Part shown: piece by piece, positions 4,848 through 23,093 of the stretch | How positions within the stretch are numbered: position 1 is the stretch's first letter | How the letters are laid out: each line of letters opens with the position of its first letter | DNA from: a virus | Length of the DNA: 24,446 bases | IMG/VR virus record: IMGVR_UViG_3300031787_000804 | Location: 1-24,446 of that record | Reading direction: 5' to 3' (one strand) | Notes under the pieces: model-generated | What the model saw: the letters and a program-made list of their open reading frames with translations, nothing else | What the model was told of the DNA's origin: nothing | The model's database searches: none | Program-made: the position numbers and the translations under genes

Positions 4848-5432
4848 TTAATTATCTAGTTCAAATGTAATAACTTTTGCTTTAACCTCTAGCTTTTCTT
4901 GCTCTAAATCTGGAAGTGAACATAATTCACCTACTTTTTCTAACAATTTTTTCATTGGATATTTATCCACAGCTTCCGTAATAAGTAACTCTGCATAATT
5001 ATCAAAGTACTTTTCCGGATATAGGTAGCTTTCAATATAGCTATGATGTCTACTATGGTCTTTAAAGAAACTCAAAATAGTTCTTTTATATTCATCCGAT
5101 ATTTTTGAATATTTTCCGTGCAAAATCTTTTTATAGTCAGATTTATAAGCACCAAAGTCAAAGATATACGCGCCGGTATTATCTTCTAATTCATAAAAAT
5201 CTTCAAACAACGGATTGTTGAGCAGCTTTTCTTGCTCAAAAACTTTGAATTCCTTGTCTTCTCTTAAATGGTATGTCACTATAAACTTGCAATCTTGGAG
5301 TGTGTATTTGTCTTCCCAGGTTATGTATGTTTGGATTGGTGTAATACTTACACCTCTGCGGATTCTTAGAATAGGATAGAAAAATATCCTACTCTTTTGA
5401 ATATATTTGGGCCATAAAGATTGCAGTCTCAT
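4848..5432 (-). CDS. Conserved phage protein of unknown function (RLQSLWPKYIQKSR family)
   Basis: 194 residues from the ATG at 5432; a TTG six bases upstream (5438) is also in frame but I prefer the ATG. The N-terminus MRLQSLWPKYIQKSRIFFYP, the RGVSITPIQTYITW segment, the FDFGAYKSDY region and the SYLYPEKYF motif are, from memory, a recurring combination in phage genomes of this kind; function is unknown to me. No transmembrane segment or nucleotide-binding motif. It lies 11 bp downstream of the nuclease gene and 11 bp upstream of the next gene, so it is part of the same transcript. Confidence 0.75.
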   Translation of the reverse strand: MRLQSLWPKYIQKSRIFFYPILRIRRGVSITPIQTYITWEDKYTLQDCKFIVTYHLREDKEFKVFEQEKLLNNPLFEDFYELEDNTGAYIFDFGAYKSDYKKILHGKYSKISDEYKRTILSFFKDHSRHHSYIESYLYPEKYFDNYAELLITEAVDKYPMKKLLEKVGELCSLPDLEQEKLEVKAKVITFELDN

Positions 5433-7568: not shown

Positions 7569-8825
7569 TTATTTTGTTGCCAAGTCTTGGACTTCCGGAT
7601 CAAACAAAAGCTTTTGGAACTTCTGCTTATTACCATTAAGTATTTTCTTTACAATGTGATATTTCAAATCATCTGTAAAGATATCAGGATGCTTGATTAG
7701 GAATAAAAGTCTATCAATAATCTCTGGTGTAATAGGATTGCTATTAGAATAGTATACAGTCCAGTTAACTAATCGTGTGCTTAACAAACTTGCAATGTCA
7801 GCTCTGTAGTTGTTCAAACCATTTTCAGCAATTGCTTCCAATAGTTTTTCTGCAACTACTTCATGTTCTTTTTCAGTGATCATTTCTTTTGGACTGATTA
7901 ATTTATCTAGTCTGTTGTTAATGAACATGCTAAAAAGTGTTGCTACTTCTGGGCCCACAGTACCTTCACCAATCATTTGAATCATTGGTATTCTTTGGTT
8001 AAAGTTTTGGAAAGAACTAATAGCATTAAAGAATGTGGTAATAGATCTTGGGTTAACACTCTTGCTTATGATTTCAGGATGCATCAAAATAAAGTTAATA
8101 CATCTGCCATCAATACCATCTTGCTCAGCCCATTCAGCCCATACTTCATGATTCCATTTCATTACTACAGAAATAAATCTTGTTCGTTGAGCTACGTCAA
8201 TTGAATTAACTAGATACTCTCCATCATCAGGGTTTGCTGTTAATAGAATATGCCAGTTCTTTGGAAGCTTCCAAGAAATATATTCCTGTCTGTCAACTAA
8301 TTCCATTACAGCTTGAATGAATCTAATATCTGCACGGTTCCAGTCATCTAATAATAGGATCCCACCACCTTGCTTATCTGCAATCCATTCAGGCGGACAG
8401 TAAGACATTCTCTTTTGTCCTGTAAATTCATATCCATTTTTGATATACTGATCAACAGCATTCTCATCAACCCATTCTTTTTTGCTTTCGCCTTCTGTAG
8501 GTTGGACAAGTTTTTCTATGATAGTTCCATCAGCAGTACGAAACTTCTTGAGTTCAGCTTTTGGTTTTTTCTCTAGTTGAAATTGTCTTACCGGGAAGCC
8601 TATCAAATCACCTAGTTCTTCTATCTGAGCTAGATTTAATTTGACAAAGTTTAGGTTATGTTCTTCAGCAATCTGAATTGCTACACTGGTTTTACCTAAA
8701 CCAGACTCTCCAATAATCTCAGTAGCTACAGGTTTCTTTCCCTGCTCTTGTATGTACTGATTGTTCTCAATAATGTGTGCGAGAAATTCTTTCATTTCTC
8801 TTGCGTTCAAACTTACTTGATTCAT
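7569..8825 (-). CDS. MoxR-type AAA+ ATPase
   Basis: 418 residues. Walker A GESGLGKT (residues 39-46), Walker B ILLLDD (156-161) followed by WNRAD, sensor 1 LLTANPD (194-200) and a candidate arginine finger in RTRF (214-217). This is the MoxR/AAA_5 arrangement. Such ATPases usually work as chaperone-like rings with a VWA-domain partner, and the very next gene upstream (8831-10051, 5 bp away) encodes a VWA protein. I therefore infer a MoxR-VWA pair that remodels a protein complex; the target is unknown. The gene ends at a terminator-like hairpin, so the pair forms the end of its transcript. Confidence 0.9.
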   Translation of the reverse strand: MNQVSLNAREMKEFLAHIIENNQYIQEQGKKPVATEIIGESGLGKTSVAIQIAEEHNLNFVKLNLAQIEELGDLIGFPVRQFQLEKKPKAELKKFRTADGTIIEKLVQPTEGESKKEWVDENAVDQYIKNGYEFTGQKRMSYCPPEWIADKQGGGILLLDDWNRADIRFIQAVMELVDRQEYISWKLPKNWHILLTANPDDGEYLVNSIDVAQRTRFISVVMKWNHEVWAEWAEQDGIDGRCINFILMHPEIISKSVNPRSITTFFNAISSFQNFNQRIPMIQMIGEGTVGPEVATLFSMFINNRLDKLISPKEMITEKEHEVVAEKLLEAIAENGLNNYRADIASLLSTRLVNWTVYYSNSNPITPEIIDRLLFLIKHPDIFTDDLKYHIVKKILNGNKQKFQKLLFDPEVQDLATK

Positions 8826-8830
8826 TTTTT

Positions 8831-10051
8831 TTAATCTTCTAATTTAATTACTTTACCTGTTTCTTTTAAGTGATCCCCATTACCTCTGGATGATATAACC
8901 CATACTGTATTTTTAGGAACGTTTTCGGGTGCAGGACATTCACCATCTGTAAAATAGAATAAACAACTGTACTTTGGATTATGCTCATTGAAATAATCTA
9001 TAACTGGTTGAAATTCTGTACCACCTCTTCCGTGGATCTCAACATCTTTTCTGGAGTTAAACTTTCCAACATAAGATATTGAGACATCACATTCAATTAG
9101 TGTTACATCAGATCCTGTCTTTTCTAGATGTGTCATCTCTTGAATAAACTCTTTTAGTTCTGATGTACTTACAGAACCAGAGGTATCAATTGCTGCTAAG
9201 ATATGTTTATGTCTTTTGAATTTAAGTCCTGGGTTTTCTTCTAGTCTTTTGTTGAGTTTACGTCTTGATTTTTTGGTGTATATTCTTGTAGATTTTCCAG
9301 CAAATCTTCTTAGATATCCTTTCCAATCAAACTTAGGTGGCTCAACTATTTTAAGCCGTTCAATTATTTCTGCAAACTCTCCTGGAATATCGCCTTTCAT
9401 TTTTGCAATCTGATCTGCAACTTGCTCTAATATATGTTTGGTTTGGTTTTCTAGTAGACGTTTAGTTGCTTCAGGAAGATCCTCAATTTCATCCCATAAT
9501 GTGTGATCTGGTATTTCTATTTCTTCACCATTTGGTAATTCACATGTAGTATTACCTTGTTGTTCATCTTGTTGTTCATCTTGACCAACTTCCATAATAC
9601 ATTTAACTGTACTCTGTGCTTTACTATTATCAGACATTAACTTGTCATAATAATAAAATGTACCCTTCTTTGGTTCAAGATTCAGATCTGGAAACTTACT
9701 CAGTTTACAAACCCCCTCCGGTAAATCTTGCTCCTCAATGTATTGATTAATTTCAAGGTCCATTGCTATGTTGCGAATAGTTTTGTTCCGCAAGTGTTCA
9801 TAGTTTGTCAAATGAAAGAATCCAATGTGAAGCAACTCATGTTTTAAGACACCAATTTTCATATTAGGTTCTAAAGATTCCCAGAAATCAGGATTAATAG
9901 CTAACTCATAGCTAATATCTTTAACTCGGACACCCGCTGTTGGAATGTCCTTTCTCCATACTTTATTTAGCGACATCAAAAGCAGTCCATAGAATGGTTC
10001 TTTTAACATCAACTCTTTACTAGCTTTAGCTAGCGTTTCCTGATTTGTCAT
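8831..10051 (-). CDS. VWA-like protein with N-terminal HExxH metallopeptidase-like domain
   Basis: 406 residues. The N-terminal part has HELLH (71-75) in the helix KIGVLKHELLHIGFFHL, followed by AMDLEIN (96-102), which matches the putative metallopeptidase domain found in DUF2201 proteins. A polar linker contains a short DEQQDEQQ repeat (about 158-165). The C-terminal VWA domain shows a complete MIDAS: DTSGS (289-293), a Thr in GGTEF (T345) and FTDGE (D369). VWA domains bind proteins through a metal at the MIDAS. The HELLH suggests proteolytic or structural zinc. Coupled with the MoxR ATPase next to it. The 5' end overlaps the preceding gene by 26 bp, which suggests translational coupling. 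Partner and substrate unknown. Confidence 0.9.
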   Translation of the reverse strand: MTNQETLAKASKELMLKEPFYGLLLMSLNKVWRKDIPTAGVRVKDISYELAINPDFWESLEPNMKIGVLKHELLHIGFFHLTNYEHLRNKTIRNIAMDLEINQYIEEQDLPEGVCKLSKFPDLNLEPKKGTFYYYDKLMSDNSKAQSTVKCIMEVGQDEQQDEQQGNTTCELPNGEEIEIPDHTLWDEIEDLPEATKRLLENQTKHILEQVADQIAKMKGDIPGEFAEIIERLKIVEPPKFDWKGYLRRFAGKSTRIYTKKSRRKLNKRLEENPGLKFKRHKHILAAIDTSGSVSTSELKEFIQEMTHLEKTGSDVTLIECDVSISYVGKFNSRKDVEIHGRGGTEFQPVIDYFNEHNPKYSCLFYFTDGECPAPENVPKNTVWVISSRGNGDHLKETGKVIKLED

Positions 10052-15848: not shown

Positions 15849-16071
15849 TTTCTGATCTTTCTTTTTCTTCGCTTAAAAACTTGATGCTGTCCGGGTTAAG
15901 GATACCAAATTTGTCTTTAACAAAGATACTAAAAAGTTCTCCAATTCCAATAAAAATTTCAATAACAACAAACTGCCAAAAGCTTATTGGAATGATGAAA
16001 TAATCAACGATTGACCATACTAATAAGGACATTAACACATTGATTAATGCCCTATGAATTCTACCTTTCAT
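15838..16071 (-). CDS. Small membrane protein, 77 residues
   Basis: Contains two adjacent hydrophobic segments, roughly residues 8-30 (ALINVLMSLLVWSIVDYFII) and 32-50 (FWQFVVIEIFIGIGELFSIF), separated by Pro-Ile-Ser. A charged C-terminal tail (LSEEKERSENGL) follows. Basic residues at the N-terminus suggest it faces the cytoplasm. Function unknown. It is coupled on both sides, with TAATG to the upstream gene at 16071 and an 11-bp overlap with the helicase gene. The position raises the idea of a membrane tether for the replisome, which is speculation. Confidence 0.7.
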   Translation of the reverse strand: MKGRIHRALINVLMSLLVWSIVDYFIIPISFWQFVVIEIFIGIGELFSIFVKDKFGILNPDSIKFLSEEKERSENGL

Positions 16072-16670
16072 TATACTACTTTTTGTGTTGTGTATCTTGG
16101 CTTTTCTTCTTCATCTCCACCTGTCATTGCTATTTCACAATAGTCTGCTAAGTCACTTAGATTATCCTTCCGGATAAAGTATTGTGATGTCCGCATAAAC
16201 TTCCAGTTTTGTTCCTGGTGATCATTTATGTATTTAGCTGTGGCTTGAAAAATTATTGGCCATTTGTATTCATAATTTTCAAAGAACCATCTAAAGTTCT
16301 TTTCAAGATTTCCTGTAGCTGCTCTAGCAGCTTTACCACTTGGTAACTTTATATTAGGGAACATCTCTTTGTATTTTACAATATTGTCTTTAAAATCCTT
16401 TGTCATTAGCTGACTACTTGTTTTGGTCTTCTGGATTTTAAAGAGCTTTTCAATCTGATCTATCAACGTCATTGCTTCAGGTGAAAGTTTGTTATCTTCT
16501 TTAATCCACCCATTTTGTTTTAGGTTTCTTAATTCAAGATGCATATTCATCCTAAGCGGAGATATAGAATCTCTCATACAACATAATAGATAATACTGAT
16601 TTGGTGTTAATCCTGCAGATGTCATTTCATTGAACATCTCCATTTGTTGAAGCATCTCCTTTTTTACCAT
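16071..16670 (-). CDS. Conserved phage protein near the helicase, possible winged-helix DNA-binding protein
   Basis: 199 residues from the ATG at 16670. A later ATG at 16625 (MTSAGLTPNQYYLLCC) may be the true start, because the longer version overlaps the upstream gene by 44 bp. The N-terminal part (LTPNQYYLLCCMRDSISPL ... LRNLKQNGWIKED) looks like a winged helix. The rest is helical with FPNIKLPSGKAARAAT and KFMRTSQYFIRKDNLSDLAD. From memory, proteins of this pattern sit beside DnaB-type helicases in several phages and may serve as replication-initiation or loader factors; this is not proven here. TAATG coupling to the membrane protein gene. Confidence 0.65.
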   Translation of the reverse strand: MVKKEMLQQMEMFNEMTSAGLTPNQYYLLCCMRDSISPLRMNMHLELRNLKQNGWIKEDNKLSPEAMTLIDQIEKLFKIQKTKTSSQLMTKDFKDNIVKYKEMFPNIKLPSGKAARAATGNLEKNFRWFFENYEYKWPIIFQATAKYINDHQEQNWKFMRTSQYFIRKDNLSDLADYCEIAMTGGDEEEKPRYTTQKVV

Positions 16671-17124
16671 TGCTTATGTCAATTATTTCAAATTTAGGAG
16701 AATTTGGATCAAACGTGTATCTTTCTTCCTCTTCATATTCTGATTTGAATTTGAAACACCATCCACCTGCTGACTTTCTTTCTCCTCTACAAACAGATCC
16801 TATATGGGAATTATTTATTCCTAAACATTTACCAGCTAGTGCTGCTGAAGAGAAATGATATATTCTCATGTAGCCTTGCTCTATGTCTGGATTGTTAAGC
16901 TCCCATCCTACTACCGGTACTTCAGATCCTGTTCCAGAGTAGATCTGCTTGAGGATATCTATAGCCATAGAGATATATGCTATCTCATGTAGTAGTTTGT
17001 TTTGTAAACGGCTATCTATGTCTTTCTGAAATTCTGCAGTGTCTGTATAACGGATTAACCCATATAAGTATTGCTCTAGCTGTTGTAGCTGATCTCTATT
17101 GATAGGAGGTCTGTATGTTGGCAT
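16627..17124 (-). CDS. NUMOD1-like DNA-binding protein without a nuclease domain
   Basis: 165 residues. The stretch from about 89 to 126 (YHFSSAALAGKCLGINNSHI, then GSVCRGERKSAGGWCFKF) matches the NUMOD1 pattern, a helix-turn-helix module usually attached to GIY-YIG or HNH homing endonucleases. No catalytic GIY, HNH or LAGLIDADG motif is present. The N-terminal 60 residues are helical and polar (RDQLQQLEQYLYGLIR). It may be a free-standing DNA-binding protein or a remnant of a homing endonuclease. It overlaps the following gene by up to 44 bp. Confidence 0.65.
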   Translation of the reverse strand: MPTYRPPINRDQLQQLEQYLYGLIRYTDTAEFQKDIDSRLQNKLLHEIAYISMAIDILKQIYSGTGSEVPVVGWELNNPDIEQGYMRIYHFSSAALAGKCLGINNSHIGSVCRGERKSAGGWCFKFKSEYEEEERYTFDPNSPKFEIIDISNGKKGDASTNGDVQ

Positions 17125-17207
17125 ATGTTTGTTTATTGTGAACGTGTGCTTGTGATGATAGTAAGGACAGTCTGTGAGGCGTTGAGAATGTAAGTCTTGT
17201 TAGCAAG

Positions 17208-17825
17208 TTATTCATTACTCATAAACTTCCTTATTCCTGTCACTGCGTTGTTGTGGTAGCCATCAAAGTCTTTTGTAAATTCTAAAGATATTGACATTTG
17301 TCCACTTTGCTCATCAGGTCTTGAATGATTCATAAATATAATTATGATATCTCTTTTGAATTTCTTAACCGAATTAACATCATTATATACCGGTAGATGT
17401 TTATACCATTTCTGATGTTCATATACGTATACAGTTTTGTTTGAAAAATTTCTTATGAATATTACTTCAGCTCCTAACTTATCGCCGCACTTACTTATTG
17501 CAATGTTTGCTTCTCTATTATTTGAATAAGATCCAGGATCCGCATTCTTTTCTGCGCCAATTGTAAAATAACCTTTGTCTTTAAAATAATCAAAGAAGGT
17601 ATGTGAGGTCATTTTAAAGTCTGGATAATGAAAGTATTTTTCATTGTATTGCAAAACTTTAAACGCATAGTCATGCTCATCATCCGCCTTCAACAAATCT
17701 ATAAGCAAATCATCAAACTCTGGTGTATCCGGAAGCATTGTTCCATGAAATACATCAGACTCAGATATGCATAAATTATCTCCATCATTATACAAACACA
17801 TTACTTTTCCTCTTGCAAATGTCAT
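17208..17825 (-). CDS. Hypothetical protein, 205 residues
   Basis: Not recognised. It mixes beta-like and aromatic-rich segments such as FKMTSHTFFDYFKDKGYFTI, TVYVYEHQKWYKHLPVYND and FKRDIIIIFMNHSR. There is no signal peptide and no nucleotide-binding loop. Its start overlaps the winged-helix gene stop as ATGA (4 bp). The pair lies downstream of the NADAR gene, which makes this stretch an accessory-looking cluster between helicase genes. Confidence 0.65.
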   Translation of the reverse strand: MTFARGKVMCLYNDGDNLCISESDVFHGTMLPDTPEFDDLLIDLLKADDEHDYAFKVLQYNEKYFHYPDFKMTSHTFFDYFKDKGYFTIGAEKNADPGSYSNNREANIAISKCGDKLGAEVIFIRNFSNKTVYVYEHQKWYKHLPVYNDVNSVKKFKRDIIIIFMNHSRPDEQSGQMSISLEFTKDFDGYHNNAVTGIRKFMSNE

Positions 17826-18088
17826 AGCTCTATGTTAAAATATTCAACTACTTTATCTACAAAATCTACCTCATCTGCTAATACATAACCTCTTCTAGAT
17901 GAAATAAATTCTACATCAAAATCCATTTTGAGTTTGAATAAATCTTTCTCTATAGTTGATTTACATACTGGCCGGTCTACAATTGAATTAACTTTACTGT
18001 GTAGATGCTTACACGTAACAGGACCTCTATTCTTTATCTCCCGATAAATTATTGACATCCTCTGCATCTGTTCTCTCAGTATCGGCAT
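17822..18088 (-). CDS. Small winged-helix (HTH_11-like) DNA-binding protein
   Basis: 88 residues. The order RMSIIYREIKNRGPVTCKHL, STIEKDLFKLKMDFDVEF, then ISSRRGYVL matches the N-terminal winged helix of DeoR/WYL-type regulators: a first helix, a recognition helix (STIEKDLFKL) and a wing ending in GYVL. The WYL or effector domain is missing, so this is a DNA-binding domain only. A phage regulator of the local operon is likely. It overlaps the following gene by 4 bp (ATGA). Confidence 0.75.
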   Translation of the reverse strand: MPILREQMQRMSIIYREIKNRGPVTCKHLHSKVNSIVDRPVCKSTIEKDLFKLKMDFDVEFISSRRGYVLADEVDFVDKVVEYFNIEL

Positions 18089-18100
18089 TGAATTCTATGT

Positions 18101-18607
18101 TTAGCTAATAGAGTAAATTGGAACTTCATCTTCTATTAATTTTTGTTGTACTTCTTTTATAGCACAACCTAATAAATTCTGACCATTCCATTTTGATTGA
18201 TCTTCTAGATAAGGGAAAGATAAATCTCTACCAATACCCCAGATTGTATCTGTAGGCGAAGCCTCTACAAACATTTTGTCTTTGTGCTTAATCAGGAATG
18301 TATCAAGTAGATCAGGGTTCTGCGAAAACTTTAAATAGTTTCCTTGATAAACCACTTGATACTTAATCAGATCCCATCTTTCATCATTGAATCCTTTTAC
18401 TTTTCTTCCTATTGCCTTTTGTTCTGCAGGATTATAGGTTTCCATAATCCTTTCTGCACTTTTCAAATCACCAAAGGCCAGGGCTTTCCAATACATCATA
18501 TACTGTTCTGTACAATTGAACTTTACATCTCCTTCCTGAAAAGGTATACCGGCCCATTGCGAATACATTCCTCCAAAGAAGAATACATAGTTTGCTGTTT
18601 CTTTCAT
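18101..18607 (-). CDS. NADAR (YbiA/DUF1768) family protein, probable ADP-ribose glycosidase
   Basis: 168 residues covering the whole NADAR fold. Characteristic blocks are FFGGMYSQWAGIPF (9-23), CTEQYMMYWKA (32-42, with E34 and K41), AIGRKVKGF (65-73), YLKFSQNPDLLDT (91-103) and TIWGIGRD (121-128). NADAR proteins cleave N-glycosidic bonds of ADP-ribose-like compounds, and some reverse guanine ADP-ribosylation of DNA. In a phage it could undo DNA ADP-ribosylation by host DarT-type toxins, or process NAD-derived signals; that is inference. It lies two bases after the small membrane protein stop and 12 bp before the winged-helix gene. Confidence 0.88.
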   Translation of the reverse strand: MKETANYVFFFGGMYSQWAGIPFQEGDVKFNCTEQYMMYWKALAFGDLKSAERIMETYNPAEQKAIGRKVKGFNDERWDLIKYQVVYQGNYLKFSQNPDLLDTFLIKHKDKMFVEASPTDTIWGIGRDLSFPYLEDQSKWNGQNLLGCAIKEVQQKLIEDEVPIYSIS

Positions 18608-18608
18608 A

Positions 18609-18791
18609 TTAATACCAACATGTTATCATTGACAAACCTGGAAGGAGTCCAATGAAATGAATAAATTCTTGTTTATAAGGTTCTGCAAAATCACAACCAA
18701 ATAGTTTGACTATGTTTACAACCCATGATATCATCATGTATGCTAAAACAATAAAGTGCATATAGTCTCCAAATGTCCACCAATTTTTCAT
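18609..18791 (-). CDS. Small membrane protein, 60 residues
   Basis: One clear hydrophobic segment (about residues 12-30, HFIVLAYMMISWVVNIVKLF) and a weaker one near the C-terminus (FIHFIGLLPGLSMITCWY), with a short charged loop between them (DFAEPYKQE). Function unknown. It is wedged between the SF1 helicase (4 bp away) and NADAR genes with no spare bases, which supports its being a real gene. It may be a membrane-acting accessory protein. Confidence 0.65.
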   Translation of the reverse strand: MKNWWTFGDYMHFIVLAYMMISWVVNIVKLFGCDFAEPYKQEFIHFIGLLPGLSMITCWY

Positions 18792-18795
18792 ACTT

Positions 18796-20208
18796 CTATC
18801 TTAAAATAAATAATCTGTGTTTAGCACGGGTGTATGCCGTGTACTTAATACGATTACGCTCTACAACTTTCCTATTAAAGTCCAGGTCTTCTTCTAGTAG
18901 GATTACATTGCTGTATGTACTACCTTGAGATTTGTGTGCTGTTATTGCGTAATTGTATGCAAGATTAGCGGACCATTTCATTATGTTGAAATAGTTTACC
19001 CAATAGCTTTTCTTCTTTTGTTTTAATGCCTGAGATCTAGCTTGAGAAAGTAATTCTTTGTAGCTCTCCTGTGAGTCTTCATGTACTACATAAAGACAGT
19101 CAAACTTATCTTCTAACTCTAGTTCCCAGAACGTACCTGACCAACTTATTAACGGCGCATCTTTATACTTCTCTTCAAATTGGAGCTGCACAATTCTGAC
19201 GGCTGATATTTTAAATTCATCAGAGGTGTTATAGTTTACACGATACTTATACCCATTGTTCCAAGGATCATAGCTTCTTGCGAATATGGGACCGTTTGCA
19301 ATAAGATTTTCACCTGGCTCAAATCTTTTTACATCTGAACCATAAAGAGCTTCTCTTACTAACTTATTCATGTAATCTACAGTCTTATTACGCCAAGCGA
19401 TTACTTTTATGTAATCCGGATCTTGTTCATAGTACGAAGACTTAAAGAATTCTTTTACACAATCTTTTACCAACTGCCGTTGATTTTGCGAATTGAACCA
19501 GATGATTCCGTGATCATTGCTATTTACCATAGTTCTTAAATTAGTAATAGGCTGTGCCATATCTAAGTTATCACGTATTGTAAAGGAAGCTTTGATAATA
19601 GGATTACCATTCTTTTGCCTCATGATTTCTTTAAGCTCTAACACTTTGAAATTATATCCGCCCTGGTCTACCGTAAACGGCAGGCATTCCTCTTTATTAA
19701 CAGGTGGAATTTGCGCGGGATCTCCCATGAAAACAATCTTTAATTTGTCTTTGTACTTAAGTAATTCAATACATAGATCATCATTCAGCATTGAGACTTC
19801 ATCTACAATTAGATATTTGAATTCACTAATCATATTTTCCTCATTGCTTGCAATAAACTTTTGCCTACCATTGACATCAATATCTTCTTTTAGTCCTAAC
19901 AATTTATGGACTGTGATATATGTAGCTTTAGTTTCCTTGCTACATGTTTCACTTAAGACTTTAACGGCTTTATTTGTTGGTGCAGTAGCTGCGACTTTAC
20001 GCGCTGTATATCGCCGGTTTATGTATTGAATTACTTTGTTGACTAAGTATGTTTTACCTGTACCCGCATAGCCTTTCAAAACTATAGCGTCTGGCTGGTC
20101 AATATCTGCGTAACTACTATTTACAAAGTCAACTAACTCTTCAAATGCTGAGAGCTGATCACTGTTTAAACTTTCTTTTAATGCTTCTTTTAATTCATCT
20201 GTTACCAT
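18796..20208 (-). CDS. SF1B DNA helicase, Dda/RecD2-like
   Basis: 470 residues. All main SF1 motifs are visible: motif I GYAGTGKT (46-53), Ia-like ATAPTNKAVK (74-83), motif II IVDEVSML (134-141; D136, E137), motif III FMGDPAQIPPV (160-170), motif V ITAHKSQGST near the C-terminus and motif VI YTAYTRAKHRLFIL at the very end. The size and order match T4 Dda-type 5'-3' helicases. It would clear proteins from DNA, restart forks or help origin melting. It overlaps the uracil-DNA glycosylase gene by 7 bp. Confidence 0.92.
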   Translation of the reverse strand: MVTDELKEALKESLNSDQLSAFEELVDFVNSSYADIDQPDAIVLKGYAGTGKTYLVNKVIQYINRRYTARKVAATAPTNKAVKVLSETCSKETKATYITVHKLLGLKEDIDVNGRQKFIASNEENMISEFKYLIVDEVSMLNDDLCIELLKYKDKLKIVFMGDPAQIPPVNKEECLPFTVDQGGYNFKVLELKEIMRQKNGNPIIKASFTIRDNLDMAQPITNLRTMVNSNDHGIIWFNSQNQRQLVKDCVKEFFKSSYYEQDPDYIKVIAWRNKTVDYMNKLVREALYGSDVKRFEPGENLIANGPIFARSYDPWNNGYKYRVNYNTSDEFKISAVRIVQLQFEEKYKDAPLISWSGTFWELELEDKFDCLYVVHEDSQESYKELLSQARSQALKQKKKSYWVNYFNIMKWSANLAYNYAITAHKSQGSTYSNVILLEEDLDFNRKVVERNRIKYTAYTRAKHRLFILR

Positions 20209-20900
20209 TTGATTTCTGTATTTCCACTACCTACTAAGACTTTGTTTATATTATTGAATAAGTCTCCGCTGTCCCATCTGCTATCTTTCTTATAGGCAGC
20301 TGAGGCAGGATGTGTTGTAAAGAATTTATAATTAAGATTTGGTATATGAGTATGCCACTCTTTGGCTTTATTACCTAAGAATACATACGCTATACCAGAG
20401 TTGTTATGTGCTAACACATCCATCAGATACACAATAAAAGGTTTCCATAGTTCTATATGGGATCCTATCTTACCTATCTGACATGTCAATGCTGTGTTTA
20501 ACATTAAGACTCCTTGATTAGACCATCTCTTTAGATCCACATCACCATCATATCCTTCAGGATAAACGGTTGATTCAATTTCTTTAAAGATGTAACGTAA
20601 CGATGGCTGTAGTTTTCCTGTATAACTACAAGAAAAAGATATACCATCCGCTACGCCAGCTTGAGGATAAGGATCTTGCCCTATGACGACAACCTTAAGC
20701 TGATCATAGGGACACTCCTGAAATGCTTTAAATAAATCTTTTATTACTGGAGTAAATTTATTTCCTGCTTGGGATTCATTATACAGAGTCTCTAGTATTT
20801 CATAGAACTGTTGACTCATGATAAACATCTTAAGTTTATCTCCCCACCCTGATTCTTTCAGGTTCTCATACAATTTTTGTTGTATCTCTTTTAATGTCAT
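20202..20900 (-). CDS. ung: Uracil-DNA glycosylase, family 1
   Basis: 232 residues, the usual UNG length. Contains VVIGQDPYPQAGVADG (catalytic D76), LMLNTALTC (N135 region), YVFLGNKAKEW and the HPASAAY loop (H197). The family consensus is GQDPYH and HPSP; here the residue after Tyr is Pro and the loop reads HPAS. The catalytic Asp and His are kept. It removes uracil from DNA before or during phage replication. It is the first gene of the SF1 helicase unit; its start lies 24 bp from the divergent plus-strand gene. Confidence 0.93.
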   Translation of the reverse strand: MTLKEIQQKLYENLKESGWGDKLKMFIMSQQFYEILETLYNESQAGNKFTPVIKDLFKAFQECPYDQLKVVVIGQDPYPQAGVADGISFSCSYTGKLQPSLRYIFKEIESTVYPEGYDGDVDLKRWSNQGVLMLNTALTCQIGKIGSHIELWKPFIVYLMDVLAHNNSGIAYVFLGNKAKEWHTHIPNLNYKFFTTHPASAAYKKDSRWDSGDLFNNINKVLVGSGNTEIKW

Positions 20901-20924: not shown

Positions 20925-21236
20925 ATGGAAAAATCAGTTAAAGTACCTTATCTTGAGGAACATATCACCGTTAATTTGGAGATCGGAACCTACTTCTATC
21001 AGAGAATGAAATCTTTATTTCATTACTTGCTCAAGGATAAAGAATCAGAAGACATAGTTAAACTAATGGCTGAAGCTTTACAACTGTCTGAAGAAGAAAT
21101 CAAAGATAAGGAAAACGCGGTAGAGATTTATCATTTACAAACAGTAATGATATTTCTAAGAGACATGGAACAAGAGTTTAGTAATAAAGATTTGATTAAG
21201 TATAAGGATGTTGAGTATCCTAAAACGACAGATTAA
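20925..21236 (+). CDS. Plus-strand conserved helical phage protein, 103 residues
   Basis: The only plus-strand gene in the window. It begins MEKSVKVPYLEEHITVNLEI and continues with GTYFYQRMKSLFHYLLKDKE, then an acidic helical body (LQLSEEEIKDKENAVEIYHL and TVMIFLRDMEQEF). I have a weak impression of similarity to small proteins in Bacteroidota phages with an IPYLDKEI-type N-terminus, but cannot name a function. It is transcribed divergently from ung with a 24-bp gap. Its stop codon overlaps the end of the convergent 21220-21609 gene by 17 bp, so both transcripts read into each other. Confidence 0.7.
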   Translation: MEKSVKVPYLEEHITVNLEIGTYFYQRMKSLFHYLLKDKESEDIVKLMAEALQLSEEEIKDKENAVEIYHLQTVMIFLRDMEQEFSNKDLIKYKDVEYPKTTD

Positions 21237-21609
21237 CTTGCTGTCCAATTTCATTCAACACTTCAATCACTAATCCTAATTCTTCTTTAGAACAATCTGC
21301 AAATGATTTGCAGTAATCTTTTTCTTTAGCCTTCCAGCATAATCCTGCTGCTTCTTTAACATATTGTTTTAGTTCTAGAAAGGTATGTCCTGTTTCCATG
21401 GATAACTTCCTAATAGATGCGTGGATCATTGCCAATTGTGGGTTTGTTCCATCATCTTTATAGGCTTCAAAGAAGGCCTCTACTACCTGGCCTTCTTCTA
21501 AACCTTTTACAAATTCATTGTACATTGCCAGATCTCCTTGTAATTGATGCATTAATTTTCCATTTTTCTTTACAAGGCGGACGCTAAATATGTTATCCTT
21601 CTGACTCAT
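21220..21609 (-). CDS. Conserved phage protein of unknown function (KSFADCSKEEL motif)
   Basis: 129 residues. An N-terminal beta-like half (FSVRLVKKNGKLMHQL) is followed by a helical half with IHASIRKLSMETGHTFLELK, AAGLCWKAK and a C-terminal YCKSFADCSKEELGLVIEVL. The C-terminal pattern recurs, from memory, in uncharacterised phage proteins located with recombination genes; a recombination-mediator role (NinB-like) is possible but unproven. The 3' end overlaps the convergent plus-strand gene by 17 bp and the 5' end overlaps the WGR-like gene by 17 bp. Confidence 0.75.
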   Translation of the reverse strand: MSQKDNIFSVRLVKKNGKLMHQLQGDLAMYNEFVKGLEEGQVVEAFFEAYKDDGTNPQLAMIHASIRKLSMETGHTFLELKQYVKEAAGLCWKAKEKDYCKSFADCSKEELGLVIEVLNEIGQQVNLSF

Positions 21610-21868
21610 GCTGATATGCTATTTCATATCCCTTCTTTACCTTTTCATGTAGAAGGTTATGGTAAATCTCATTTGCTTGAGAATAATTAACCGGACCATC
21701 TGTTTTTTTATGTACTGTTTGGTGGCCGTGCTTTCTACCATACGTAGATATTACCTCAAATCCTGCACCATTATGATGCTTAATGAGTCTAAGGTTATAT
21801 ACCTTGTCTACATTGTTACGCCAGTCTTGCATCGCAAGCTGTGTTTCTTTTTCTTTACCTAGTACCAT
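21593..21868 (-). CDS. WGR-like small DNA-binding protein
   Basis: 91 residues. The order VYNLRLIKHHNGAGFEV, TYGRKHGHQTVHKK (YGR at 43-45), then YSQANEIYHNLLHEKVKKGY (KGY at 79-81) matches the WGR domain: a strand with YNL, the WGR motif (here YGR) and a helix ending in KxKKGY. WGR domains occur in PARPs and in MolR-like proteins and are thought to bind DNA ends or nucleic acid. The domain stands alone here. It overlaps both neighbours (17 bp at 21593, 14 bp at 21855), so it is translationally coupled. Confidence 0.7.
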   Translation of the reverse strand: MVLGKEKETQLAMQDWRNNVDKVYNLRLIKHHNGAGFEVISTYGRKHGHQTVHKKTDGPVNYSQANEIYHNLLHEKVKKGYEIAYQHESEG

Positions 21869-22232: not shown

Positions 22233-23093
22233 TTAAAAGATGTATCTGATTTGGTTCCATGGAATAATCTCATTGTGTAACATTTTAAAGGAACGTATGT
22301 ACTTGTCCTTTATATTACATCTGTATCTGAGATTATGTCCTCCGTATTGGGATATTTTAGGTTGTTGCAGAGTAGGATTCCAGAGTAAATTTTCTCCAGG
22401 TAAATTATTTTCAACGTTGTGCTTGTGCTTGTCTTCATTATGGGTAAGGAATATAACTTCTGATAATACATCTGTTTTATATTCTTTCTCTACAATTGAA
22501 TCAACAAGTTTAAAGAGTTCTTTGTATTCATTTAGCCATCCGTCAAATACTACAACTGGAGAGAAATTGATATGGACATCATAGCCTGCTCTCTTAAAGT
22601 CATTGATAGCTTCAATACGTTTTTGAATTGGTGGTGTGTTAGGTTCTAGCTGGTCCGCAATTACTTGTGGCATTAAACTAAATCTAATTCTTACCTTACC
22701 TTTTGGATTAAAGGAAAGGAATTCGTGAGGGATTATCTTTGTAGCAAATGTTGCTTTTGCATGAGGATGTTTTACAAACACCTCAAAGATTTGTTCCCAA
22801 TCATAATACTTTCTATGAAGAGCAAAGTCTTCATTGCATGCTATATCATAAGTGATATATTCTGGATCTGTTTGATTAGGTTTCTCAACCTCTGTGAACC
22901 AAGCATGATTGCTTATCTCTGTAAGAATACTTCCTATATTCTTTGAGACATCTAAACCTTCAGGCTTATGTCTTTTCATGTAACAATATGTACAATTTAA
23001 AAGACAGCCATAACCAAAAGAAGGAGCAATAAAATCACTGCTCCTTCCACTTGGTCTTATAAGCATAGATTTCCTATTGGACTTTGTAACCAT
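22233..23093 (-). CDS. Radical SAM protein, spore photoproduct lyase (SPL)-like
   Basis: 286 residues. CLLNCTYC (C30, C34, C37) gives the CxxxCxxC ligand set for a 4Fe-4S cluster that binds S-adenosylmethionine. It is preceded by PSFGYG and followed by YMKRH, the local pattern of SPL-family proteins. Later segments such as YITYDIACNEDFALH, FATKIIPHEFLSF and VRIRFSLMPQVIADQLEPNT also fit that family. SPL repairs 5-thyminyl-dihydrothymine photoproducts in DNA. In a phage it may repair UV lesions or act on another nucleic-acid substrate; I cannot confirm a hydrogen-donor Cys by eye. The 5' end overlaps the upstream gene by 20 bp. Followed by the long hairpin. Confidence 0.85.
   Translation of the reverse strand: MVTKSNRKSMLIRPSGRSSDFIAPSFGYGCLLNCTYCYMKRHKPEGLDVSKNIGSILTEISNHAWFTEVEKPNQTDPEYITYDIACNEDFALHRKYYDWEQIFEVFVKHPHAKATFATKIIPHEFLSFNPKGKVRIRFSLMPQVIADQLEPNTPPIQKRIEAINDFKRAGYDVHINFSPVVVFDGWLNEYKELFKLVDSIVEKEYKTDVLSEVIFLTHNEDKHKHNVENNLPGENLLWNPTLQQPKISQYGGHNLRYRCNIKDKYIRSFKMLHNEIIPWNQIRYIF

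Follow-up and report, generated by a model that had tools for sequence, protein, structure and literature searches.

An intact YbiA-type NADAR gene at a variable replication-region site of a probable distant crAss-like phage

The locus described here lies in a window of 24,446 bases, which is an entire viral contig and a fragment of a phage genome. Its NADAR gene is embedded in a series of minus-strand genes, which are listed below together with the borders of the site that they occupy.

16071-16670, minus strand: conserved protein, function not assigned; one border of the variable site
16627-17124, minus strand: NUMOD/HNH-like DNA-binding protein, between this border and the island
17208-17825, minus strand: 205-aa orphan protein, relatives not found
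17822-18088, minus strand: 88-aa probable winged-helix protein, downstream of NADAR
18101-18607, minus strand: NADAR protein, YbiA-type by domain matches, alignment, AlphaFold and Foldseek; ATG start, 168 aa
18609-18791, minus strand: 60-aa probable small membrane protein with one clear hydrophobic stretch, upstream of NADAR across a 1-nt gap; without family match
18796-20208, minus strand: Dda-like SF1 helicase
20202-20900, minus strand: uracil-DNA glycosylase (UDG); second border of the variable site
22233-23093, minus strand: spore photoproduct lyase-like radical SAM protein

The replication genes of the window indicate its origin. For the DnaB-like helicase, all matches fall in records of crAss-like or unclassified gut phages; the primase resembles, at 27-30% identity, those of Bacteroides, Cellulophaga and cr-phages; and the best match of the DNA polymerase is Cellulophaga phage phi14:2. 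Since these identities are about 30%, the lineage is a distant one, and the source virus is probably a distant crAss-like phage, presumably with a Bacteroidota host.

The reading frame at 18101-18607 belongs, on its sequence matches, beyond doubt to the NADAR superfamily. It is matched by the Pfam NADAR family PF08719 (6.8e-43; 147.2 bits against a curated cut-off of 35.1) over profile positions 11-162 of 163, by phrog_1017 (5.9e-47), by TIGR02464 (1.7e-40; 138.8 bits against a cut-off of 73.7), and by a PADLOC candidate family. With tblastn, 673 of the 50,697 phage records searched contained a relative, in no case reaching 60% identity. A chance reading frame was ruled out by the Pfam, phrog_1017 and TIGR02464 matches and by these relatives. 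The AlphaFold model, built from a 65-sequence alignment, has a pLDDT of 95.6, and its comparison with the PDB by Foldseek returned the NADAR structures 8bau (TM 0.84, E 7e-10) and 2b3w (TM 0.78), with no significant match beyond these two. The first-pass annotation had described a complete NADAR fold at exactly these coordinates, and the near-full profile coverage, the model and the structural matches bear it out.

The neighbours of this gene had been described as a small membrane protein, a lone winged helix and a 205-residue protein, with no toxin gene alongside. This description is correct, although the winged helix is better said to look like one, its WYL match being non-significant (E 0.048), and the neighbours gave zero matches to ART or DarT families. 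The predicted model of the 205-aa protein has a pLDDT of 33. When viral contigs were scanned with the NADAR, the helicase or the 205-aa protein as single sequences, zero relatives were returned, and profile scans were needed; the syntenic relatives came from one such scan, run with the spore photoproduct lyase-like protein. The window's gene order is common to L256, L302, L277/L279, L314, L289 and L295, none of which carries a NADAR at the matching site, so the NADAR was rejected as a core phage gene. The site extends from the UDG to the 16071 gene (16071-20900 in the window), where it holds the helicase, the small membrane protein, the NADAR, the winged helix, the 205-aa orphan and the NUMOD-like protein. 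It is empty in L314, with a 1-nt gap between the UDG and the 16071 homologue (5234-5236), and in L295, where the two genes overlap slightly (9354-9360). Small unrelated genes fill it in L302 and L279, a lyase-like gene and others in L289, and a helicase, a lyase-like gene and others in L256; the window's helicase has its counterpart at the same place in L256 and was not found in L289, L302, L314 or L295. Within this phage group, the site thus ranges from empty to several kilobases with differing genes, as expected for the accessory cluster between replication genes that had been proposed from the window. Accessory cargo is the likely status of the NADAR gene, because no toxin lies beside it and the variable replication-region site is empty in some relatives.

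Of 40 records from the phage group, 3 contain a NADAR, always within a very large open frame: the NADAR-like segments of the crAss-like L332, L333 and L334 lie in frames of 3912, 2245 and 4080 residues, respectively, and the segment in L334 scores below the curated cut-off. These giant proteins are possibly packaged in the virion.

Several other genes of the window deserve mention in their own right. The spore photoproduct lyase-like protein has homologues encoded in at least 565 stretches of uncultured viral contigs (L252-L331) and one weak match in 50,697 named phage records, and is, judged by its sequence, a widespread, little-noticed phage enzyme of DNA-repair-like type. At 20925-21236, the sole likely plus-strand gene stands amid minus-strand genes, and similar-looking frames of opposite orientation lie beside the UDG in L256 (6989-7318) and L289 (2585-2920). 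A MoxR-like AAA ATPase adjoins a DUF2201 metallopeptidase/VWA protein (7569-10051, minus strand). A small stand-alone WGR-domain protein is encoded at 21593-21868 (minus strand; E 3e-5); WGR domains occur in PARP enzymes, and the protein might be tied to nucleic-acid or ADP-ribose biology.

The active site was compared with that of the NADAR of Phytophthora nicotianae, whose ADP-ribose-site residues are E43, K50, R79, D86, W89, R93, E125, D130 and W133, with K75 close to the site (PMC11543638). By alignment, the equivalents in the phage protein are E34, K41, R68, D75, W78, K82, E115, D120 and W123, plus K64, so that nine of the ten mapped residues are identical and K82 replaces R93; the numbering of 8bau is offset by two, as judged from the residue pattern. 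Among the 65 aligned NADAR sequences, E34, K41, D120 and W123 are invariant, K64, R68, W78 and E115 nearly so, and D75 and K82 variable. The key blocks that had been read as intact are therefore present, and the alignment reveals no loss of catalytic residues.

NADARs are classed by the residue in the last strand: YbiA has Glu there, the DarT1-linked BC4488 family has Asp, and phage gp30.3 has His (PMC11125620). The charged residue of the phage protein at this strand is E115, and Glu occupies the position in 64 of the 65 aligned sequences. The NADAR domain begins near residue 1, with no fold extension. Being of Glu type and without such an extension, the protein is assigned by alignment to the YbiA subfamily. 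Every NADAR type tested, YbiA and a phage NADAR included, hydrolyses guanine-ADP-ribose in vitro (PMC11125620), and the phage protein, with its intact site, is therefore probably biochemically competent as well.

Whether this competence would extend to DarT1 in cells is a separate matter. The first-pass annotation had proposed an anti-DarT role, in which a dedicated orphan antitoxin would strip ADP-ribose from guanine in phage DNA in DarTG1 hosts. The intact site argues for it: E34 aligns with E88 of the DarT1-linked NADAR C7 as well as with E43 of P. nicotianae, and K64 corresponds to lysine K115 of C7, which is needed for rescue. The comparison with DarT1-linked NADARs, which relies on published residue numbers, turns the other way at two points. 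The site of D171 of C7, two residues before the conserved Glu, is occupied by F113 in the phage protein and by one of L, I, F, Y and M in each of the 65 aligned sequences, the position having been deduced from PMC11543638. The basic N-terminal extension of DarT1-linked NADARs, a proposed DNA-binding element, is likewise absent from the reading frame. In cells, rescue from DarT1 was obtained only with the C7 and EPEC NADARs, while YbiA and T4 gp30.3, the latter despite its activity on guanine-ADP-ribose in vitro, failed to rescue E. coli (PMC11125620), and protection by the phage NADAR is accordingly not a given. Orphan phage NADARs acting against DarTG1 nevertheless have published precedent (Johannesman et al. 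2025, Nat Commun 16:1598).

Genomic co-occurrence was assessed in 395 Bacteroidota genomes with the DarT model PF14487, a Pfam model that may miss DarT1. DarT was present in 38 genomes and NADAR in 39, with both in a single genome, where the genes lie unlinked on different contigs. No NADAR reading frame stood beside DarT at any of 69 loci (about 3.4 kb each) that were sampled from Bacteroidota and from the classes to which G401 and G404 belong, nor was a PF14487 match found in 50 records carrying query-like NADARs. The expected association with host DarT1 systems thus failed to appear, which argues only weakly against DarT1 pressure, since PF14487 may not recognise DarT1 and the host assignment is itself indirect.

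The relatives of the gene point in a different direction. The nearest NADAR, in L018 (56% identity), pairs with the phage protein in the tree (99/95) and adjoins a homologue of the spore photoproduct lyase-like gene and a UDG homologue, while the window's winged helix, 205-aa and membrane neighbours are missing beside it; a toxin-antitoxin partner set among these neighbours therefore finds no support. Such DNA-repair-like company would fit a nucleic-acid substrate, which favours an anti-DarT1 antitoxin and counts against the broader reading preferred below. Among the 74 loci of nearest viral relatives with usable gene calls, NAMPT lies within four genes of the NADAR in 24, Macro in 17 and NadM-Nudix in 15. 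NAMPT was found in 30 of the 50 records with query-like NADARs; 23 of the 30 pairs are at most 5 kb apart against 3.6 expected at random placement, and 17 are at most 2 kb apart against 1.7, in a record set that includes near-duplicates (L022, L023). The NAD+ salvage label is spread over the tree, with 16 changes, at least 11 of them forced. In Synechococcus phage B23 (L009 2956-5093), the NADAR lies between a nicotinamide-nucleotide adenylyltransferase and a nicotinamide phosphoribosyltransferase. A position beside NadM and NadV has been described independently in PMC9503650, where phage NADARs are proposed to process mainly soluble ADP-ribose derivatives. No NAD+ salvage gene was recognised in the 24.4-kb window or found in the 12.4-kb contig of L018, so the NAD+ link is drawn from the genomes of relatives and not from this phage's own contig. 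A tentative extension is that YbiA-type phage NADARs, NAD+ salvage genes and Macro could form a recurrent module that destroys ADP-ribose immune products and feeds NAD+ synthesis, its substrate being something other than DarT1-modified guanine.

Taken with the missing Asp and N-terminal extension, the failure of T4 gp30.3 to rescue and the rarity of Bacteroidota genomes with both DarT and NADAR, this proximity to NAD+ salvage leaves DarT1-specificity unsupported. What stands of the original proposal is its wider part, since counter-defence by orphan NADARs is published and the gene sits in a cargo position. Anti-DarT1 action is possible, and a dedicated antitoxin is the leading competitor, a less likely but live reading.

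The same enzyme might instead be a metabolic N-glycosidase that clears reactive riboflavin-pathway intermediates or leftovers of NAD+ recycling, with no anti-defence role. TIGR02464 is a riboflavin N-glycosidase family, and its cut-off is far exceeded; the YbiA-type residue agrees with this, as do the stand-alone NADARs of bacterial chromosomes, which are about as similar to the phage protein. This score cannot by itself identify the substrate, however, because the family appears to cover YbiA-type NADARs broadly. Moreover, no riboflavin gene was recognised in the 24.4-kb window, and the sporadic cargo position suggests conflict over housekeeping, so a purely metabolic role is improbable. Less probable still is phage-side regulation, in which the NADAR would reverse ADP-ribosylation by the phage's own ADP-ribosyltransferases. 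It draws on T4, where the ART alt is close to gene 30.3, and on the description of NADAR and ARTs as early genes in T4-like phages (PMC9503650), but no ART was found among the genes of the window, itself a genome fragment.

The explanation preferred here, with a probability of roughly 0.55, is that of a general phage ADP-ribosyl hydrolase, an intact YbiA-type NADAR carried as cargo for NAD+/ADP-ribose counter-defence and not dedicated to DarT1. The protein would act as a stand-alone, ADP-ribose-binding N-glycosidase that cleaves the bond linking a base to ADP-ribose, its gene being optional cargo in the variable replication-region site of a putative distant crAss-like phage. Its likeliest role would be counter-defence or protection in NAD+/ADP-ribose conflict, which the cargo position and the company kept by its relatives fit, and its substrates may be ADP-ribosylated nucleic acids or small ADP-ribose derivatives produced by host immune enzymes. 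The analysis shows the fold, the active-site residues, the subfamily, the variability of the site and the genomic association of close viral relatives with NAD+ salvage, whereas the protein's enzymatic activity, its cellular substrate, its counter-defence role and the Bacteroidota host are inferred from these.

Such a general hydrolase can be set against the known NADARs. The P. nicotianae protein (8bau, ADP-ribose-bound, not DarT-linked) is the best match in both sequence (2e-11) and structure, shares the ADP-ribose-contacting residues and the Glu in the last strand, and is active on guanine-ADP-ribose (PMC11543638); it differs in its N-terminal and internal fold extensions, which the phage protein lacks, and in R93. 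E. coli YbiA (2b3w) shares the naked, Glu-type fold at 22% identity in the structural alignment, yet lies in a chromosomal dinG-rhlE neighbourhood, unlike the phage-borne gene. The DarT1-associated NADARs (DarG1, BC4488) belong to the same superfamily, with E88, K95 and K115 matched by equivalents, whereas the phage protein lacks the Asp at the D171 site, the DNA-binding extension and the DarT partner. T4 gp30.3 is similarly phage-encoded and stand-alone, but it is a highly diverged His-type protein that aligns poorly, with KHS where the phage protein has E115, while the latter is closer to bacterial and eukaryotic NADARs. The placement beside NadM and NadV occurs among homologues of the phage protein and is not seen on its own contig. 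Counter-defence by orphan phage NADARs was already proposed in the Discussion of PMC11125620.

Phage NADARs, their removal of ADP-ribose from bases and their use against DarTG1 are thus already published. Johannesman et al. 2025 reportedly describe divergent phage NADARs with anti-DarTG1 activity. AdfN, an orphan phage NADAR directed against DarTG1 from that study, resembles the protein described here in standing alone and embodies the mechanism proposed in the first-pass annotation, but is reportedly DarG1-like rather than YbiA-type.

With this locus, a probable crAss-like phage joins the list of NADAR carriers, and a testable split emerges in which phage NADARs of the YbiA type go with NAD+ salvage genes and not with DarT. 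If this is confirmed, the in-cell substrate of YbiA-type phage NADARs would be directly assayable, and most of these proteins would serve NAD+/ADP-ribose counter-defence rather than act as dedicated DarT1 antidotes.
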